This document shows, piece by piece, positions 46,275 to 55,780 of a DNA stretch of 64,000 bases. A program made the translations under genes and the position numbers. The notes under the pieces are model-generated. The model made no database searches. It was not told the DNA's origin and saw only the letters and a program-made list of their open reading frames with translations. Within the stretch, counting starts at the first letter, position 1. The number at the start of each line of letters is the position of its first letter. Source of the DNA: Phycisphaerae bacterium (GTDB taxonomy: Bacteria; Planctomycetota; Phycisphaerae; Phycisphaerales; SM1A02); contig PAAJ01000016.1 in the NCBI GenBank assembly GCA_002702575.1, forward strand, positions 143,452 to 207,451, read 5' to 3'.

Positions 46275-47318
46275 ATGAATGCAAGCCGCTACCAGCGGCA
46301 GGTCATCCTGCCTCAGGTCGGAGAGGACGGGCAGTCCCTGTTGTCCTCTGCCCATGTTCTGGTCGCGGGTTGTGGTGCACTGGGTTGTGCCGTTGCGGAT
46401 CTGCTTGCGAGAGCAGGGGTCGGCTGTCTCAAGTTGGTCGATCGCGATCTCGTCGAACTGTCGAATCTCCAACGTCAGGTTCTCTATCAGGAATCCGATG
46501 TTGGTCTTGCCAAGGCCGAGGCAGCCGCACGACGTCTGCATTCGGTCAACTCTCAGATCGAGATCGATCCACATGTCTCCGACATCAATCCGATGACGGT
46601 AGGCGGCTTGGCGGAAGGATGCGATGTCATCGTGGACGGGCTCGACAACTTCGAGACGCGCTATCTGCTGAATGATGTCTCTGTTTCGATGAGCGTTCCA
46701 TACATCTATGGCGGTGCCGTCGGAACCGAGGGTCTTTCATTCCCGATCCTGCCCGAAAGGCAGTCAGCATGTCTTCGATGCGTCTTTCCCGAACCACCGC
46801 CTGCGGGTGCGACGGCAACCTGTGATACGGCCGGTGTCCTCGGACCGATCATCACGATGGTCGCCGCCCATGAAGCGATGCAGGTCCTCAAACTCCTGCT
46901 CATGAAGGAAGCGGACCTCGACCATGCACTGGTGAGCTTCGATGTGTGGAACAACGAGATCAGGAGACTGTCCGCACCCAAGCGGGACGATGACTGCATC
47001 TGCTGTGGTCGTCGAGAATTCGAATGGCTCGAGGGCGATCGCAGTGGTTCAACAACCACATTGTGTGGCCGTGGTGCCGTGCAGATCCTCCCGGGCAGCC
47101 AGACCCGTGTGGACCTGAAGGATCTTTCCATCCGCCTCGAGGCCCACGGTGAATTCTCTCTGCATGACGGCATCCTCAGAGGCCAGCTGCATGAGGAACG
47201 CAATGGGGACGGTGATCTTGTGGAGTTGACCGTCTTCGAGGATCTCAGGGCCATGGTTGGTCGCGTGGATTCCACCGAACGTGCCAAGGCGATCTACGAT
47301 CGTTACGTGGGATCCTGA
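46275..47318 (+). CDS. ThiF/MoeB/HesA-type adenylyltransferase
   Basis: RYQRQVILPQVGEDGQSLLSSAHVLVAGCGALGCAVADLLARAGVGCLKLVDRDLVELSNLQRQVLY; CLRCVF and CICC pairs. Confidence 0.9.
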   Translation: MNASRYQRQVILPQVGEDGQSLLSSAHVLVAGCGALGCAVADLLARAGVGCLKLVDRDLVELSNLQRQVLYQESDVGLAKAEAAARRLHSVNSQIEIDPHVSDINPMTVGGLAEGCDVIVDGLDNFETRYLLNDVSVSMSVPYIYGGAVGTEGLSFPILPERQSACLRCVFPEPPPAGATATCDTAGVLGPIITMVAAHEAMQVLKLLLMKEADLDHALVSFDVWNNEIRRLSAPKRDDDCICCGRREFEWLEGDRSGSTTTLCGRGAVQILPGSQTRVDLKDLSIRLEAHGEFSLHDGILRGQLHEERNGDGDLVELTVFEDLRAMVGRVDSTERAKAIYDRYVGS

Positions 47319-48802
47319 GAAACACCACGGGCATCACTTCGGTTTCGAAGGACTGGAACAAGAATCGCAAGGATCGCCAGCAGGAGCATGGCTCCCGCAA
47401 TCGGTCGATCAATGAAGACATCCCATCCATCCATCATGAATGCCCTTCGGAGATTGAGTTCCGCAATGCTGCCAAGCACCAAACCGAGGATGACTGGCGC
47501 TGTTGGGTAGTCATGTCGACGAAGCAACCAGCCAAGCAGACCGAAGGCCGCGCAACTGCCTACATCAAAGAGACTGCTTCGCACTGCGAACGAGCCGATG
47601 ATGGCCAGCATCGCAATCATGGGAAACAACAAGGCTCGCGGCACACGCGCTACCTGAACCCAAAGCCGACTGCCAAGCATTCCGACGATCAGTAGAACGA
47701 TGTTGGCTACCAGCAAGCTCGCAAACAATCCATAGACGACATCAGGCTTCTTGGTGAAGAGTGCCGGGCCGGGAACCAATTTGTGGATCATCATGGCTCC
47801 GATCAGCACAGCCGTGGTCGCCGAGCCTGGCAGACCCAGCGTCAGCAGCGGGACAAGCGCACCACCGACTGATCCACTGTTGGCCGACTCGGCGGATGCA
47901 ATGCCTTCCGGAACACCACTTCCGAACTCGCCGGATCGTCCAGACAATCTTCGCGTGATGTCATAGGAAATGAAGCTCGCAATCGTTGCGCCGGCACCTG
48001 GCACAATCCCGATCAGGCACCCGATCAAGCTCGAACGAATCATGCACCATTTCAACCGCCAGTATTCGATGATCCGGGGCCATCGTGTTGAACTCGGCGA
48101 ATGCGAGGCCGGCGTACGAATTTGTCGCTCCAGTTGCAGCAGGATTTCCCCAAGAGCGAACATGCCGATCAGAGCTGGAATCAGACTGACACCATCGGCC
48201 AGATTCGGAATACCGAAGGATAAACGTGTGCTTCCCGAAATCGGATCTCCCCCGACTGTCGCCAACAGAAGTCCAAGAAGAACTGTGATCAATGACTTTC
48301 GCCAATCACGGCCTCCAAGTGAAGCTACTGTTGCCAGGCCGAGAATGGCCAGCGCAACGTACTCGGCAGGATGAAACTTGACCGCAATAGCCGCCAATGG
48401 AACGGAGAAGAGAATCAGGATGATCGAACCGATCAAACCGGCCATGGTGGATGAAACAAGCGAGACTCCAAGCGCTTCACCGGCACGACCCGATTTGAAC
48501 ATCGGATGTCCGTCCATTGCCGTAACGACCGCAGACGGAGTGCCGGGTGTATTGATCGTGATGGCGGTGATCGAACCTCCGTAGCTTGCAGCAACGTAGA
48601 CCGCCACGAGGAACATCAAAGCCGTACCCGGTTCCATTTCCCAAGTGAATGGCACAAGGAGTGCGACCCCCATTGCTGGTGACAGTCCTGGCATCACGCC
48701 AACGGCGATACCGAGCAGCACGCCACCGACAATCGCGAGGATCGGACCTGCTCCGAGCAAGGAAGCAAATCCATTTGTGAGATTCATGCCGAAGTCGTTC
48801 AT
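47303..48802 (-). CDS. tctA: Tripartite tricarboxylate transporter large permease TctA
   Basis: GGVLLGIAVGVMPGLSPAMGVALLVPFTWEMEPGTALMFLVAVYVAASYGGSITAITINTPGTPSAVVTAMDGHPM. Confidence 0.93.
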   Translation of the reverse strand: MNDFGMNLTNGFASLLGAGPILAIVGGVLLGIAVGVMPGLSPAMGVALLVPFTWEMEPGTALMFLVAVYVAASYGGSITAITINTPGTPSAVVTAMDGHPMFKSGRAGEALGVSLVSSTMAGLIGSIILILFSVPLAAIAVKFHPAEYVALAILGLATVASLGGRDWRKSLITVLLGLLLATVGGDPISGSTRLSFGIPNLADGVSLIPALIGMFALGEILLQLERQIRTPASHSPSSTRWPRIIEYWRLKWCMIRSSLIGCLIGIVPGAGATIASFISYDITRRLSGRSGEFGSGVPEGIASAESANSGSVGGALVPLLTLGLPGSATTAVLIGAMMIHKLVPGPALFTKKPDVVYGLFASLLVANIVLLIVGMLGSRLWVQVARVPRALLFPMIAMLAIIGSFAVRSSLFDVGSCAAFGLLGWLLRRHDYPTAPVILGLVLGSIAELNLRRAFMMDGWDVFIDRPIAGAMLLLAILAILVPVLRNRSDARGVSQDPT

Positions 48803-50328
48803 GCCGCATCCCCGCCCATTGACATGAAGAAACCAAGTGGCAGATCCATCTTGAGCAAGTACGCGAACAAAACCCAAGATCCAATACACCAAGATGCGAC
48901 AAGAACACAAATCACCATCAATCGACGTTCGCCCAATGCCCAGCTGGCTGCTGAAAGAAAAATACCAGTGACGATGTAGTAACCGAGCAACGGCATGAGC
49001 AAGACGACACCAGCCATCCCCATGATGAAAGCCAGAGGCCGAAACGGTCTGTAGCCGACATGCCTCGGGGGCTGATCCCCTAATGGGTGTCGCATCTGCT
49101 TTGCAACCTCTGCTGCCGCAAACAGAAACAGCAGAAAAGCCCACAGCCAGGGTGCTGCGGAGGAGCCTAGTTGGTCAACGGCATTGGCCGGTGGTAGTTC
49201 AAAGGCCGCAGCCATGGCAATCAACGCCGTTCCAGCCAGACCCAGTCCGAGTAGAACACTCGCCGTCTGATGTTGACGACCCAACTGGGACAACACGATG
49301 GCAAGAATGATCCCAATCAGGAGAATGAGTCCCACCACCATCCATTGAAGCCATGAGACTTTCCGAGCTTCGTTGAGCAGTTCGAGGCGAGAGAGCGCGT
49401 CATGGAAAAAGATGCGATCTTGCGCCACGATCCCATTGAAGACTTCGGGACCCTCATCCATCACGATGATTCCAGTCTCCTCCCATTCATCTCGCCACTC
49501 AGGATCCAGCGTGACCTGCCTGACAAGATTGCGAAACCAGACCATCGCGTCAGGAGGTGTCCCCTTTCGCAAGGCCAGCCCTCTCCACATCACCTCTCTG
49601 TCGATTCCCTTGATTCCCAGTTCCTTGAATGTCGGAACTTCGGGATACGCCGACAATCGCTCAGGAACGGCGACAGCAGCGATTGTCAGCTTGTCGTTTC
49701 CATGTGCATCACGAGGGTTCCCCATGTAGGCCACCGTATGACCGCCAAGCAGGACCGCCTTGGCCTGGCCGCCACTGCGATAGGGAACCCAGCGCACATC
49801 GATCCCGCTGGCTTGCCACAGTTTCATTGCGACGATGTGATCCAGACCGCCAATCGCAGGCCCGGACCAACTCTGGTTTCCAGGATCGGCAAGGGCATCC
49901 CGCAGGAGTTCATTCATAGTCACCAAGGCACTTTCAGTGCGAGTGATGACACACTCAGGGTCTTCCATCAACAGGGCAGCAAAATCAGTTTCATCAAGCA
50001 GTGACTCACGACCTGCTGCGATCAGACTTGGAATATTGCTTCGTGTGACTGCAAGAATCCATGTGCCATCTGCAGGCTGATCAATCACGCTCTGGAAAGC
50101 CGTTACACCGCCACCGCCCGGCTTGTTGAGCACGATGATCGGAATGTCCGTGTATCTGGAGGCGATGGCCTGGAATCTTCTGGCTGTCGTGTCAATGAGG
50201 CCACCGGGGCCGGTGTAGACGACAATCCTGATTGGACCATCAGGCCGAATCGGATGAACTGGCACCACGGAATCCTGAGTGCACAGAACGGAAGCCAAAA
50301 GTAACAGAATGGAAGCCACGGAAGCCAT
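48799..50328 (-). CDS. TctC-type (Bug) substrate-binding protein fused to TctB-type small membrane subunit
   Basis: Signal MASVASILLLLASVLC; PIRIVVYTGPGGLIDTTARRF...VLNKPGGGGVTAFQSV...YRSGGQAKAVLLGGHT; C-terminal about 5 hydrophobic helices ending SWVLFAYLLKMDLPLGFF. Confidence 0.85.
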   Translation of the reverse strand: MASVASILLLLASVLCTQDSVVPVHPIRPDGPIRIVVYTGPGGLIDTTARRFQAIASRYTDIPIIVLNKPGGGGVTAFQSVIDQPADGTWILAVTRSNIPSLIAAGRESLLDETDFAALLMEDPECVITRTESALVTMNELLRDALADPGNQSWSGPAIGGLDHIVAMKLWQASGIDVRWVPYRSGGQAKAVLLGGHTVAYMGNPRDAHGNDKLTIAAVAVPERLSAYPEVPTFKELGIKGIDREVMWRGLALRKGTPPDAMVWFRNLVRQVTLDPEWRDEWEETGIIVMDEGPEVFNGIVAQDRIFFHDALSRLELLNEARKVSWLQWMVVGLILLIGIILAIVLSQLGRQHQTASVLLGLGLAGTALIAMAAAFELPPANAVDQLGSSAAPWLWAFLLFLFAAAEVAKQMRHPLGDQPPRHVGYRPFRPLAFIMGMAGVVLLMPLLGYYIVTGIFLSAASWALGERRLMVICVLVASWCIGSWVLFAYLLKMDLPLGFFMSMGGDAA

Positions 50329-50470
50329 GACCAGATTCTGATCAAATCTCCAGCGGTTGACCGGTCCGCAATGTCAAGATCGTGTGAAGTTGAGCCTGTA
50401 CATCACAGATCCAGCGTCTGGAATTCCTTGTCGCAGTAGCATGCTTCGCTCTCAGCCAAATAGGAAATGA

Positions 50471-51763
50471 GTGATTCACATGCTGCAGCTTGTATTCGCG
50501 TTGATACTGTTCTTCCCCGGACTTGTCCAAGCCGAAAAAGTGTATTACTCGTTCAAAGGCGATGCGGGAGGCGGTGTTGCTGTCATCGAGGTCGATGCGG
50601 ACACCGGTGTCTTGGGCGAATCGAAGATCCTTTTCAAGGATGAACGATTTCGGGAACCCGGCAAGGTCCGGATCTCTCCGGATCAGCGGTACATCGCCGC
50701 CATCTCCGAGCACGTGAACGCTCCCAATCTGGCGATCATCGACCAGGCATCCGATCCCGCCACGATTCATGCGATCACTCTTGATGAGAAACCGACTGCA
50801 ATCCGGATGCGCAATGATCTGTTGCTCGTACTCTGTGACGACGGGCCCGTCGTATTGGTCGAGCTTTCAACCGGCGAAGTCAAATCCACCTTTGACTCCA
50901 GGAAAGACATCAAGCCGACCGCAAACCAGCCTGAAGAAGGTGTTTTCGCACCAGATGGTGATCATGTCCTCGTGACCTACCAGAAGGATCACAAGAAGGG
51001 CAAGCATCAGGGGTGCCGTGTGATCGTCTTCTCAATTCCCGACTTGGAAGTCAAGCATGATCTGCATCTACCTCGTCAACATCCTGAACTCCACACGGAA
51101 GGTGTGCCAGCAGAACAGGGCCCCAACCCTGAGGAAATCATCCTGCTTCCGGACATCAACAGCGTCATTCTGAGTCTGGATCTGTATGGAGGCGTGGCTG
51201 TATGCGACCTTGATGACATGATGGAAGGCATCTGGGACAACCTGATATACATTCCAACGAGCGAGGATGACGAATTGGGCCATGCGTTCCCCGACCGCAT
51301 GAATGTCATTCAGACAGCGGATGGACCTCGAGTGCTGGTCTGCAATGCGGGCAGCCAGGGAGGCGCCTGCATCATCGATCCCGTCAAGAAGAAGAAAATC
51401 CAGTACTTCAAGACCATTCCTGGCCTTGATACCCCCACGGTGTTCTCATCACATGACCTGATTGTCTGCGGAGCTACTGGGAAGACCAAGAATCGTACAT
51501 CTGATGGTGTTCAGAAAATGTATTCCCCAGGAGATTCGCTTCATGTCTTCTGCTTTCAGCCTCAACTGAAAATGAACACCATTGCACTGGAATCCTCGAA
51601 AGTGGAACGTTGCCATGCCATCGAATCAAAAAACCACCCTCACGTGATTGCGGTGGCACGGGATGGTGATGAATGTTTTCTGAAACTCGTGAATCTGCAC
51701 ACAGGTGATGTGGTCGCTGCAGCAGCCCCGGCAGGAAACGTAGCCCGATTTGGGCTGCATTGA
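50471..51763 (+). CDS. Exported beta-propeller (YVTN/lactonase-like) protein
   Basis: Signal peptide MLQLVFALILFFPGLVQA; repeating VAVIEVDADTGVLG / LAIIDQASD / VVLVELSTGEV blades. Confidence 0.65.
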   Translation: MIHMLQLVFALILFFPGLVQAEKVYYSFKGDAGGGVAVIEVDADTGVLGESKILFKDERFREPGKVRISPDQRYIAAISEHVNAPNLAIIDQASDPATIHAITLDEKPTAIRMRNDLLLVLCDDGPVVLVELSTGEVKSTFDSRKDIKPTANQPEEGVFAPDGDHVLVTYQKDHKKGKHQGCRVIVFSIPDLEVKHDLHLPRQHPELHTEGVPAEQGPNPEEIILLPDINSVILSLDLYGGVAVCDLDDMMEGIWDNLIYIPTSEDDELGHAFPDRMNVIQTADGPRVLVCNAGSQGGACIIDPVKKKKIQYFKTIPGLDTPTVFSSHDLIVCGATGKTKNRTSDGVQKMYSPGDSLHVFCFQPQLKMNTIALESSKVERCHAIESKNHPHVIAVARDGDECFLKLVNLHTGDVVAAAAPAGNVARFGLH

Positions 51764-51911
51764 ATCTGAACAATATGCTTACTCTATCTTGCTGACTTGG
51801 GCACAAGGACACAACTTAAACATGGTTTCATGATTCCGTCAGAAGGGATCAGTCGTGTTGTCTGGTCTCCAATAAAATGGTTGCACATTGAGGAAAGCAA
51901 GAGAGAGAATC

Positions 51912-52514
51912 ATGAAACTTACACTTGTAATGACTGCAGCAGCAACAGCTTTGTTTGCTGCATCTGCCCAAGCAGATTTGGTCATCACCGAAGCCTATGG
52001 TGGCATGTCCGGTGAAGATGGAACTGCAGACTGGATTGAAATCACGAATCTTGGCGATTCCGCAGTCAGTGGCTCTGGCCTCTTCTATGAAGATGAGTCT
52101 GCTGACGAGGATGACCTGACTGCGATCAACGGCCTTGGTAACATCGGGGTTGGTGAATCCGTAGTCGTCATGATCGGTACCGAGTCTGATACCGATGGCT
52201 TCCTTGAATTCTGGGGCATTCTGGGCGTCCAGGTTGGCTGGAGCGATGGTTCTGGTCTCAAAGAGGGTGACACGGCTTGGATCTACTCCACAGCTGATGG
52301 CTTCTTCAACAGCCTCACGGTTTCCGAGCTTGAAGATCCAGCAACCACTCAGTTTGGTGGCGGCCTCTCGACTGCAGCCAATGGTGTGTCTGTTGGCTTG
52401 ACTGAGCAAGGCGTCATGTATGGCGATCCCGGCTCCTTCACAGTCCCTGCACCTGGTGCACTGGCACTTCTCGGCCTGGCTGGCATCTCTGCCCGTCGCC
52501 GCCGTCGAGCCTGA
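51912..52514 (+). CDS. Exported protein with PEP-CTERM-like sorting signal
   Basis: Signal MKLTLVMTAAATALFAASAQA; C-terminus SFTVPAPGALALLGLAGISARRRRRA. Confidence 0.8.
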   Translation: MKLTLVMTAAATALFAASAQADLVITEAYGGMSGEDGTADWIEITNLGDSAVSGSGLFYEDESADEDDLTAINGLGNIGVGESVVVMIGTESDTDGFLEFWGILGVQVGWSDGSGLKEGDTAWIYSTADGFFNSLTVSELEDPATTQFGGGLSTAANGVSVGLTEQGVMYGDPGSFTVPAPGALALLGLAGISARRRRRA

Positions 52515-52545
52515 GTCTCTCCACTCAGGTTGATTTGTATTGATT
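52510..52545 (+). terminator. Terminator-like hairpin overlapping the stop codon
   Basis: CCTGAGT-ctctcc-ACTCAGG followed by TTGATTTGTATTGATTTC. Confidence 0.6.
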
Positions 52546-52552
52546 TCTTCCC

Positions 52553-52576
52553 ATCCCCCCCGGCAACGGGGGGGAT
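52553..52576. terminator. Second GC-rich hairpin
   Basis: ATCCCCCCC-ggcaac-GGGGGGGAT, perfect 9-bp arms. Confidence 0.6.
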
Positions 52577-52885
52577 TCTCATTGAACAGATCTCTGGGCC
52601 AACTCAGGTGCCCCCTGCAAAGGGAAGCCTATGCCAGACATGAACATTTTATGAACCGAGCCGATCTGTTTTCCATTCACACGATCGAAGTGGGTGCGAA
52701 CTGACCCTCTTAGCCAACGCCTACGAAAACATGAGGTGGGTTTCTTTCGTCAGACGCAAGAACGAACGCTCTTAAAGCGTGATTGATTCGAGCGAAGTGC
52801 TAACGCCATCTGAATATGAGCGGCGTATTTTAGGTCATTGATTACTCAGAAAAGTATCTGAAACCAAACTGGAGGAGAGAGCCAG

Positions 52886-54805
52886 ATGTCAAGCAAGATC
52901 ACATTCATCACGGTTGCATCGACGATGATCGCAACGGCAAGTACCTATGGGCTCGCAAGTAATTGCGGCATCGTATTGACCGAGTACAACGCTGTTGGAT
53001 CAGACAAGTGGCTCGCAAATCCCAACGGATCCGCCTACGAAGGGCCCGGTGGAGAAAATGCCGTCGATCCCGTGACCGGCGAAGTCGTTGACAATGCTGA
53101 CACGTATTTCGGTCGAGTGCAGGGCAATGGTGGCGACTGGTTCGAGTTTGTCATCACCGTGGACAATCTGGATGTTCGTGGCTGGCAGATCTACTGGGCC
53201 GAACTTGATGAAACAGATGCCAATGGTGTCGACTACTTCTGGGACGGAATCGGTTCTGGATACGGTGTCGATGCATCAATCCCCCATGGCATCATCACCT
53301 TCTCTGAATCTGCAGCCTGGTCGAATCTGCGAGCTGGAACCGTCCTGACCATCTCCGAAAACCCTCTTGACATTGCTGCAACCGATCTTTCCTTCGATCC
53401 TTGCAATGGAGACTGGTGGATCAATGGCAACACGCTTGACAGTGAGTACTTCACCACGGTGACCAACGTCACAAATGACGGCGAAGGGCCCGGCAATTTC
53501 GACTGTGGTAATGACAGCATGATCATCGCCGTCTTCGATGCTGATGGGAACATGTGCATGAGCTGGACAGGCGAAGGTTCTGATGACTGGGGTGGCGGCG
53601 GAGTCAACAGCCGCGAGATCATGCGACTGGAGCAGGATCCTGATTCGAATACAGCCGCCTTCGACTTCTACGATGACGGCAAGCAGAGCAGCTTCGGCAG
53701 TGCCAATCGCTGGTCCGATGCCTTCACCGACTGCCGGACCTATGGATCGATCGAATCTGTCAGAGCGGATGTCATTGACGAATGTGGCTGCACAGCCATC
53801 ATCCTGAACGAGTACAACGCTGTCGGCAATGAGGATTTTCTCAATGGCGGTGATGGGGTCGCCGATGAAGATGGCGAGTTCGCATCAGACACCTACTTCG
53901 GCCGCCAACTCGCCAACGGTGGCGACTGGTTCGAAATGGTCGTCATCCAGGACGGCCTTGACATGCGCGGCATGATCTTGACATGGGCGGAATCTGGCGA
54001 GTTTTCCAGCACCACCGGCACGATCATTCTTTCTGATGACAGCTCGCTGGCAAACATTCCTGCAGGAACCATTGTCACCGTGATTGAACGTCCAACCGCT
54101 GAGGGTGGGCTGGACAGTGAAACCGATCTCACCGATGGCTGGATCAACATCTGCACCCGTGACACCTCGCTCGTCGCCGAGACGACTTCAAATGATCCTG
54201 ATCATGTGGACTTTGGAGACATCAAGGTCAACGAAGATGACTGGACTCTCGGGATCAGCAACTGGGACGGTACACCGCTCATGAACCCCGCTGGTGAAGG
54301 CTTTGTTGCCTACTGGCGTGGCGGCGTCAGCTCCGAGAACACCTGTCACCTGGAAATGGACATCATGGGCACTCACTACTCACCCAATGATGCCTATGAC
54401 GACAGCGCTCGTGGATCCACCTTCGGATCCGTCAATCGCTGGCGTGCCTGTCCCGAGGATGCTTGGATCGAGCAGACCATCGACATCGATGCGAACTGCC
54501 TCGCGGTCGTTGCTCGCGGCGGCTGCTGCATCGGCAGCAGCTGCAGCCTTGCGATAGAATCGGCTTGTGTCAGCTCTGGCGGAAGCTATCTGGGTGATCA
54601 CACCGGCTGTGAGGATGCTGATTGTGGCCCTGACTGTGAAACTGGCGATGTCGATTGCGATGGTGATGCGGACGTGGACGATCTTCTCCTGCTGCTGGGC
54701 GCATTCGGAGACTGCGACGATTGCAGTGATTGCCCGACAGATTTCGACGGAAACTGCAGCACAAATGTGGACGATCTTCTGCAACTCCTGAGCGTCTACA
54801 AGTGA
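52886..54805 (+). CDS. Secreted protein: two tandem copies of a TEYNAVG...DTYFGR...GGDWFE module, Cys-rich module, dockerin-like EF-hands
   Basis: Internal repeat plus CCIGSSCSLAIESACVSSGGSYLGDHTGCEDADC and GDVDCDGDADVDDLLLLLGAFGD...TDFDGNCSTNVDDLLQLL. Confidence 0.8.
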   Translation: MSSKITFITVASTMIATASTYGLASNCGIVLTEYNAVGSDKWLANPNGSAYEGPGGENAVDPVTGEVVDNADTYFGRVQGNGGDWFEFVITVDNLDVRGWQIYWAELDETDANGVDYFWDGIGSGYGVDASIPHGIITFSESAAWSNLRAGTVLTISENPLDIAATDLSFDPCNGDWWINGNTLDSEYFTTVTNVTNDGEGPGNFDCGNDSMIIAVFDADGNMCMSWTGEGSDDWGGGGVNSREIMRLEQDPDSNTAAFDFYDDGKQSSFGSANRWSDAFTDCRTYGSIESVRADVIDECGCTAIILNEYNAVGNEDFLNGGDGVADEDGEFASDTYFGRQLANGGDWFEMVVIQDGLDMRGMILTWAESGEFSSTTGTIILSDDSSLANIPAGTIVTVIERPTAEGGLDSETDLTDGWINICTRDTSLVAETTSNDPDHVDFGDIKVNEDDWTLGISNWDGTPLMNPAGEGFVAYWRGGVSSENTCHLEMDIMGTHYSPNDAYDDSARGSTFGSVNRWRACPEDAWIEQTIDIDANCLAVVARGGCCIGSSCSLAIESACVSSGGSYLGDHTGCEDADCGPDCETGDVDCDGDADVDDLLLLLGAFGDCDDCSDCPTDFDGNCSTNVDDLLQLLSVYK

Positions 54806-54865
54806 TTCCAGTTTGACATATGGTCTGAGTCATCATCATGGCTTCAACAAGATGAATGGAAAAAA

Positions 54866-55750
54866 ATGACTAGAGAAAATCACACGACATGTGCATACTT
54901 TGAATCATGGGACTTCGCGAGAAATCGTGTTTGCCTGAAAAGGGGGTTTACTCTCATTGAGCTGATGGTTGTCGTGGTGATTCTCGCCCTTCTTCTGGCC
55001 GTACTGATTCCTGGACTGTCCTCTCTCCAGTCAAGTTCGCGTGCAGCCAAGAGCATGTCGAACATGAGACTCTGGGGCCGTGGCATCGTCGCCTATTCGA
55101 CCGAGTACAAGGGGCGGATGCCGTGGGAAGGCATGAAGACCGCCAACCAGATGCCGGTGAATTTCCAGAGACCCGAATGGTGGGCTAATGCCATTCCTCC
55201 ATATGTCGATCAAATCTCATATCGCGATTACGAGCGTGCTCACGGTGGCGAAGTTCCCATGCCACCCGAGAAGAGCATCTTCATTGATCCATCAGCCCAG
55301 GCTCCCAACCAGCCCTACATGGGTGGAGGCAGAAACTTCTTCTTCTGTTACGTGCCCAATGCCCAGTTGGACAACACCTATGAAGAACAAGTGCTGGAAC
55401 GCGATCCCCAGATGCAACAGACTCCCTGGGACATCAGAGTTCCTCTCTCCTTCATATCGAAGCCAAGTCAGTCGATCATGATGCTCGAAATTCGGACCGC
55501 CAAGGACGAACTCCCGAAATCCGATCCCTGGTACAACGAAAACCTGAAGCGACACATGTCCGATTGGCAGCGATTTGCCGCACGTCACAGGCAAGGCGGC
55601 CACATGGTCTTCGCGGATGGACACACCGCCCACAAGCGGAATGATCTGGCTACCACCAATGCCCAAGGGACGCGTGATCCCGATCAACCTGATGGTAATT
55701 GGAACAAGGAAGGATTCATCTGGGATCCCCTGGGTCCGGCCTTGCACTAG
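54866..55750 (+). CDS. Type II secretion-type pseudopilin/prepilin
   Basis: RGFTLIELMVVVVILALLLAVLIPGLSSLQSSSRAAKSMSNMRLWG; H...GGHMVFADGHTAHKR near C-terminus. Confidence 0.85.
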   Translation: MTRENHTTCAYFESWDFARNRVCLKRGFTLIELMVVVVILALLLAVLIPGLSSLQSSSRAAKSMSNMRLWGRGIVAYSTEYKGRMPWEGMKTANQMPVNFQRPEWWANAIPPYVDQISYRDYERAHGGEVPMPPEKSIFIDPSAQAPNQPYMGGGRNFFFCYVPNAQLDNTYEEQVLERDPQMQQTPWDIRVPLSFISKPSQSIMMLEIRTAKDELPKSDPWYNENLKRHMSDWQRFAARHRQGGHMVFADGHTAHKRNDLATTNAQGTRDPDQPDGNWNKEGFIWDPLGPALH

Positions 55751-55780
55751 GCTGTCACGCTGCCTTTGACATACCAGATC

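Follow-up and report, generated by a model that had tools for sequence, protein, structure and literature searches.

A TctC-TctB fusion with an added membrane helix in a planctomycete, and the probable repeated tethering of binding proteins in tripartite tricarboxylate transporters

Tripartite tricarboxylate transporters (TTTs) are classically encoded by separate tctC, tctB and tctA genes, in that order. Rare TctA-TctB fusions were noted in a 2018 review (PMC5812351), the accessible part of which mentions no TctC-TctB fusion and states that TRAP and TTT systems share no sequence similarity. Among TRAP transporters, fusions of the P and Q components are known but are rarer still than those of Q and M (PMC8276074), and fusions of TAXI proteins to GltS were described in 2025 (PMC12344293). 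A published description of TctC-TctB fusions was not found in the open-access literature, a scope that leaves most subscription journals outside. The locus described here is one such fusion. On the evidence of its sequence, we consider it highly probable that it encodes a TTT-type importer whose small membrane subunit carries the binding protein as a permanently tethered domain, and that the fusion arose separately.

The window, by which we mean the whole stretch of 64,000 nucleotides that was analysed, belongs to a draft Planctomycetota genome (G000; 3.17 Mb in 32 contigs, with 8.2% contamination). A single open frame on its minus strand (tctCB, 48799..50328) encodes a chain of 509 residues made up of a signal sequence, TctC, an added transmembrane helix (TM0) and TctB. 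The earlier note that proposed the fusion had given exactly these coordinates, omitting the strand, and the peptides quoted there are all present in this one uninterrupted frame. The N-terminal signal sequence (residues 1-22; 50263..50328) contains a hydrophobic segment at residues 4-22 and a predicted helix at 2-18, and does not match the canonical lipobox pattern. The TctC/Bug solute-binding domain (residues 29-317; 49378..50244) is recognized by Pfam (PF03401, residues 50-288, E 4.9e-22), by a sequence match of residues 28-317 to solved TctC proteins (4x9t, E 7.5e-24) and by Foldseek, which matches the fold of the predicted model to TctC/Bug structures. TM0 (residues 329-350; 49279..49344) then leads into a complete TctB, its own first helix (TM1) included (residues 355-497; 48838..49266). 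The Pfam TctB match (PF07331, residues 362-497, E 5.4e-11) extends over profile positions 8-137 of 137, which answers the reservation that the C-terminal half might not be TctB. Both domains lie above the curated Pfam cut-offs and are the only ones to do so, no DctP or DctQ domain being present; an NCBIfam search with the fusion gave no match.

The TGA of tctCB (48801-48799) and the ATG of tctA (48802-48800) overlap in an ATGA (48799..48802, minus strand), just as had been read from the sequence earlier. The tctA permease that follows (47303..48802, minus strand; 499 residues) matches PF01970 over the full profile (E 1.3e-148). These TctC, TctB and TctA matches are the only ones found in the genome and, with one unbroken frame of 509 residues and no other TctC found, the window does not encode a free periplasmic TctC. 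The core of the earlier proposal, a TctC joined through a transmembrane helix to TctB and adjoining tctA, is therefore upheld by Pfam, alignment, predicted model and fold match alike. Judged by these features, the system is a variant of the TTT family and not a classical member with separate subunits.

In the predicted model of the fusion (pLDDT 78.9 overall, about 57-83 at the junction), a helix spanning residues 294-350 runs unbroken into TM0 and is followed by the TctB helices. The tether between the end of TctC (at about residue 317) and TM0 (329) is some 10 residues long and is modelled with low confidence. TM0, which is evident from hydropathy, appears in alignment as an insertion without counterpart in free TctB, and the TM1 of the window fusion aligns with that of free TctB. 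Net charge is positive in the loops that follow TM0 and TM2 and negative in the one that follows TM1, a pattern consistent with cytoplasmic, periplasmic and cytoplasmic locations for the loops following TM0, TM1 and TM2, respectively. The TctB portion may also contain an extra short segment at residues 450-464.

These features suggest how the protein could work. The signal sequence would export the TctC domain, and the tether of about 10 residues would then keep this domain anchored to TM0 on the outer side of the membrane. By returning the chain to the cytoplasmic side, TM0 would precede the insertion of TctB TM1-TM4 in their usual orientation and, as expected from the family, TctB would dock on TctA. 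The tethered TctC would capture an organic anion and pass it to TctA, which, again by extension from the family, would move it using an ion gradient. TctC would thereby be fixed one-to-one with TctB, neither swapping between partners nor diffusing away. The change in transport stoichiometry that the earlier note drew from the tethering is likewise putative. The alternative that survives best is that the fusion is cleaved after export, freeing a soluble TctC that serves a classical TTT. We regard this as unlikely: the sequence contains nothing against processing and the junction (residues 318-328) is modelled with low confidence, but the sequence showed no recognized motif for cleavage, the helix in the model has no break between residues 294 and 350, and fusions are kept across several phyla, something for which releasable domains would have no need.

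Comparison with other TctB proteins points to two ways in which the domains have been joined. The free-TctB model starts at position 6 in the window fusion and at position 9 in a second fusion, L150, and at 22 or later in every other fusion; among free TctB proteins it starts at positions 1-9 in 30 of 32. A start of at least 22 in a fused TctB falls at or past the end of the first helix, and alignment of the ordinary fusions places the C terminus of TctC directly against the GPxxFP loop and TM2, with TM1 gone. As read from these sequences there are two joining solutions, namely the loss of TM1, in almost all other fusions, and the retention of TM1 with addition of TM0, in the window and L150; the mode of the window is the rarer of the two. 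Since TctC would lie outside under both, TctB would normally start in the cytoplasm.

L150, from a genome of the Acidobacteriota phylum (G715), is the only other known member of the window-type architecture, defined by TM0 and a full TctB. Its chain of 496 residues (TctC E 3e-38; TctB E 7e-10) is 29% identical to the window fusion over 480 residues, in an alignment that spans TM0, and the adjoining TctA proteins of the two loci are 50% identical. The L150 fusion (L150:7-1867) is followed, in an apparent operon, by tctA and by genes for a PhoU-like (DUF47) protein and a PHO4-family phosphate transporter; the latter two have no equivalent in the window. Searches of the Planctomycetota (392 genomes), of the Verrucomicrobiota phylum (289 genomes) and of 119 genomes around G715 found no window-type fusion beyond these two.

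The rarity that the earlier note implied for TctC-TctB fusions was overturned by our survey of TTT loci, in which they proved widespread in the Planctomycetota and several other phyla. When GTDB contigs were scanned with only the window fusion as query, no relative was obtained because its patterns were too specific; a profile built from nine fusions located 471 related places, and the 80 best were retained. A TctB search of the 392 Planctomycetota genomes returned many TctB domains within frames of 440-535 residues, and those examined were TctC-TctB fusions adjoining tctA. Fusion-sized frames made up a substantial minority in 297 genomes of the Acidobacteriota phylum, and among the matches listed for 198 genomes of the phylum to which the Desulfarculaceae belong nearly all TctB frames were of free size. 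The 126 loci classified, a count that includes duplicates, comprise 93 that are fused by both domain models, 25 with separate genes, 2 single chains and 6 in which only TctC was recognized; L037-L039, which fall in the last group, are still fused, having long TctB-like tails and, for L037 and L038, a Pfam TctB match. In the set of 110 non-redundant rows used for trees, fused rows come from Planctomycetota, Acidobacteriota (7), Verrucomicrobiota (3), Balneolota (2, from cultured Fodinibius), Bacteroidota (1) and Hydrogenedentota (1), and the tct genes are separate in relatives belonging to Thermodesulfobacteriota, Omnitrophota, Myxococcota and Bipolaricaulota. Finished genomes also contain such fusions, an example being CP050848.1 (L064).

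Some further features of these proteins deserve mention. An N-terminal Cys in a lipobox-like context was present in 61 of 79 fused and 4 of 28 free TctC proteins of the 110-row set, counts that ignore relatedness; many fusions may, on this reading, be doubly anchored. Several long frames were rejected as fusions, among them L004, in which TctC lies in a frame of 484 residues whose extra length is N-terminal to TctC and contains no TctB, and L148, L149, L153, L156 and L160, in which upstream extensions of long TctB frames overlap other genes. At L162 (G333:C203:3080-4516), a single TAG is all that separates a free tctC from a free tctB in the one frame that they share, which illustrates the ease with which such fusions could arise.

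The same domains are also found in other arrangements. In the Planctomycetota genus g109, two loci (L040:3998-6916 and L041:3998-6919) encode single chains of 972-973 residues in which TctA (17-436) is followed by a further hydrophobic segment, then by TctC (585-851) and last by a hydrophobic tail resembling TctB, and other genomes of the genus contain frames of the same size. The tail scored above the TctB cut-off in a six-frame genome search (about 34 bits) and was not listed as TctB in the scan of the whole chain; its putative identity is the weakest of the assignments within the chain. A plasmid of Thalassobaculum sp. OXR-137 (L134:1721-3016) encodes a TctB with a TctC-like domain between TM2 and TM3 (E 2e-16 with our own model), which is predicted to be cytoplasmic and occurs together with a separate tctC; this is the only insertion-type record in the plasmid collection. 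TctA-TctB fusions of 657-678 residues (L151, L152 and L154) form one clade.

Trees of TctA bear on how often tethering has arisen. The window TctA falls among those of systems that encode TctC and TctB separately and is sister to that of L150 (support 100/87). Among the TM1-less fusions, which come from Planctomycetota and other phyla, two types are distinguished, I and II (L047, L017-L039 and L048 onward), L086 of the cultured Fodinibius roseus being of type I. Approximately unbiased (AU) tests rejected a single clade of window and type I (p 1.4e-6), of types I and II (p 1e-55) and of window and type II (p 0.010, or 0.023 with L150 added), the last being a rejection of moderate strength, with a long branch leading to the window TctA. 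A clade uniting the window and L150 with L159, another TM1-less fusion, was likewise rejected (p 0.0012). The rejections imply at least three separate fusion events, and L159 probably represents a fourth origin. The window fusion arose separately from the TM1-less fusions of types I and II, common descent with them being at odds with the AU tests. Taken as a whole, the sequences make it likely that TTTs have been tethered at least three and probably four times, by deletion of TM1 or addition of TM0, and that in one genus the system has collapsed to a single TctA-TctC-TctB chain.

Nearly all of the transporter locus lies within an islet of 8.4 kb (47319..55765) that is absent from five congeners. 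In all five, the homologue of the window gene that starts at 55766 comes immediately after the ThiF-family gene whose window copy ends at 47318, with a gap of 20 bp in G005. Searches of 36 relatives from the genus and the family gave no match to TctCB. The GC content of the islet is 0.542 compared with 0.573-0.591 in the flanks, and GC3 is 0.58 in the tct genes compared with 0.64-0.71 in their neighbours. Horizontal gain is the simplest reading of these observations, and the transporter probably reached G000 in this way. Contamination as the source of the contig was considered and rejected: the assembly is 8.2% contaminated, but on either side of the islet the contig is collinear with the congeners. 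The species-specific islet lies near rpsL-rpsG and also encodes a beta-propeller-like protein (50471-51763), a protein with a weak PEP-CTERM/LTD match (51888-52514), a 639-residue protein (52886-54805) and a pilin-like N_methyl protein (54866-55750). The occurrence of the locus in one of six species of the genus, where close relatives that would show selection are absent, might suggest a decaying, non-functional gene pair; this has little probability, given two intact open reading frames, a preserved ATGA coupling and a TctA match over the full profile.

Slightly less probable again is a membrane-bound sensor, in which TctC would report ligand instead of feeding a transporter. The 2018 review (PMC5812351) describes many homologues of TctC as orphans that lack membrane partners, but here the fusion gene overlaps a tctA that is intact over its full profile, Pfam finds no signalling domain, and no other TctC or TctB was found in the genome to serve tctA. 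An assembly or sequencing error merging separate tctC and tctB genes, which the draft state and contamination of the assembly and the classical gene order could suggest and which the earlier note had itself raised as a frameshift, is very improbable, since L150 encodes the same fusion, TM0 included, in an independent genome, so that a frameshift artefact cannot explain both proteins, a simple joining of frames leaves TM0 unexplained, the flanks are collinear with the congeners, and other TctC-TctB fusions occur in finished genomes such as CP050848.1.

The tethered importer that we favour belongs to a wider pattern of TctC-TctB fusions, apparently undescribed in the open-access literature though perhaps already catalogued in protein databases. 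Fusions that occur in nature would fix stoichiometry and set limits on geometry, and two opposite modes of joining, both of which would leave TctC outside, are an independent indication that the cytoplasm is where TctB starts. Such tethering is in addition a test of the need for a diffusing binding protein in TTT transport. If repeated tethering is correct, these secondary transporters would have the binding protein as a fixed and obligatory component, and the fusions would offer natural one-chain and two-chain structural targets in a family for which a sequence search of a PDB copy found no structure of TctA or TctB.

Relative to the classical TTT (TctCBA; TC 2.A.80), the window system has all three domains, likewise ordered C-B-A, and a TctC fold like that of the solved Bug proteins; the classical TctC is separate and secreted, whereas that of the window shares a chain with TctB and an additional helix. 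Type I and II fusions also carry TctC N-terminal to TctB and adjoin tctA, but they lack both the TM1 of TctB and TM0, mostly have the lipobox-like Cys (61 of 79) and branch apart from the window in the TctA tree. TTT subunits are joined in TctA-TctB fusions too, but there the binding protein stays separate. The likeness to ABC importers with fused binding proteins that was drawn in the earlier note holds for the tethered capture domain (PMC8276074), but those systems are ATP-driven and unrelated, and closer precedents exist. In the TRAP P-Q fusions, as in the window, the binding protein is joined to the small membrane subunit (PMC8276074), and in the TAXI-GltS fusions of Lachnospiraceae a binding protein of another family is covalently tethered to a secondary transporter, in that case through the permease itself (PMC12344293).
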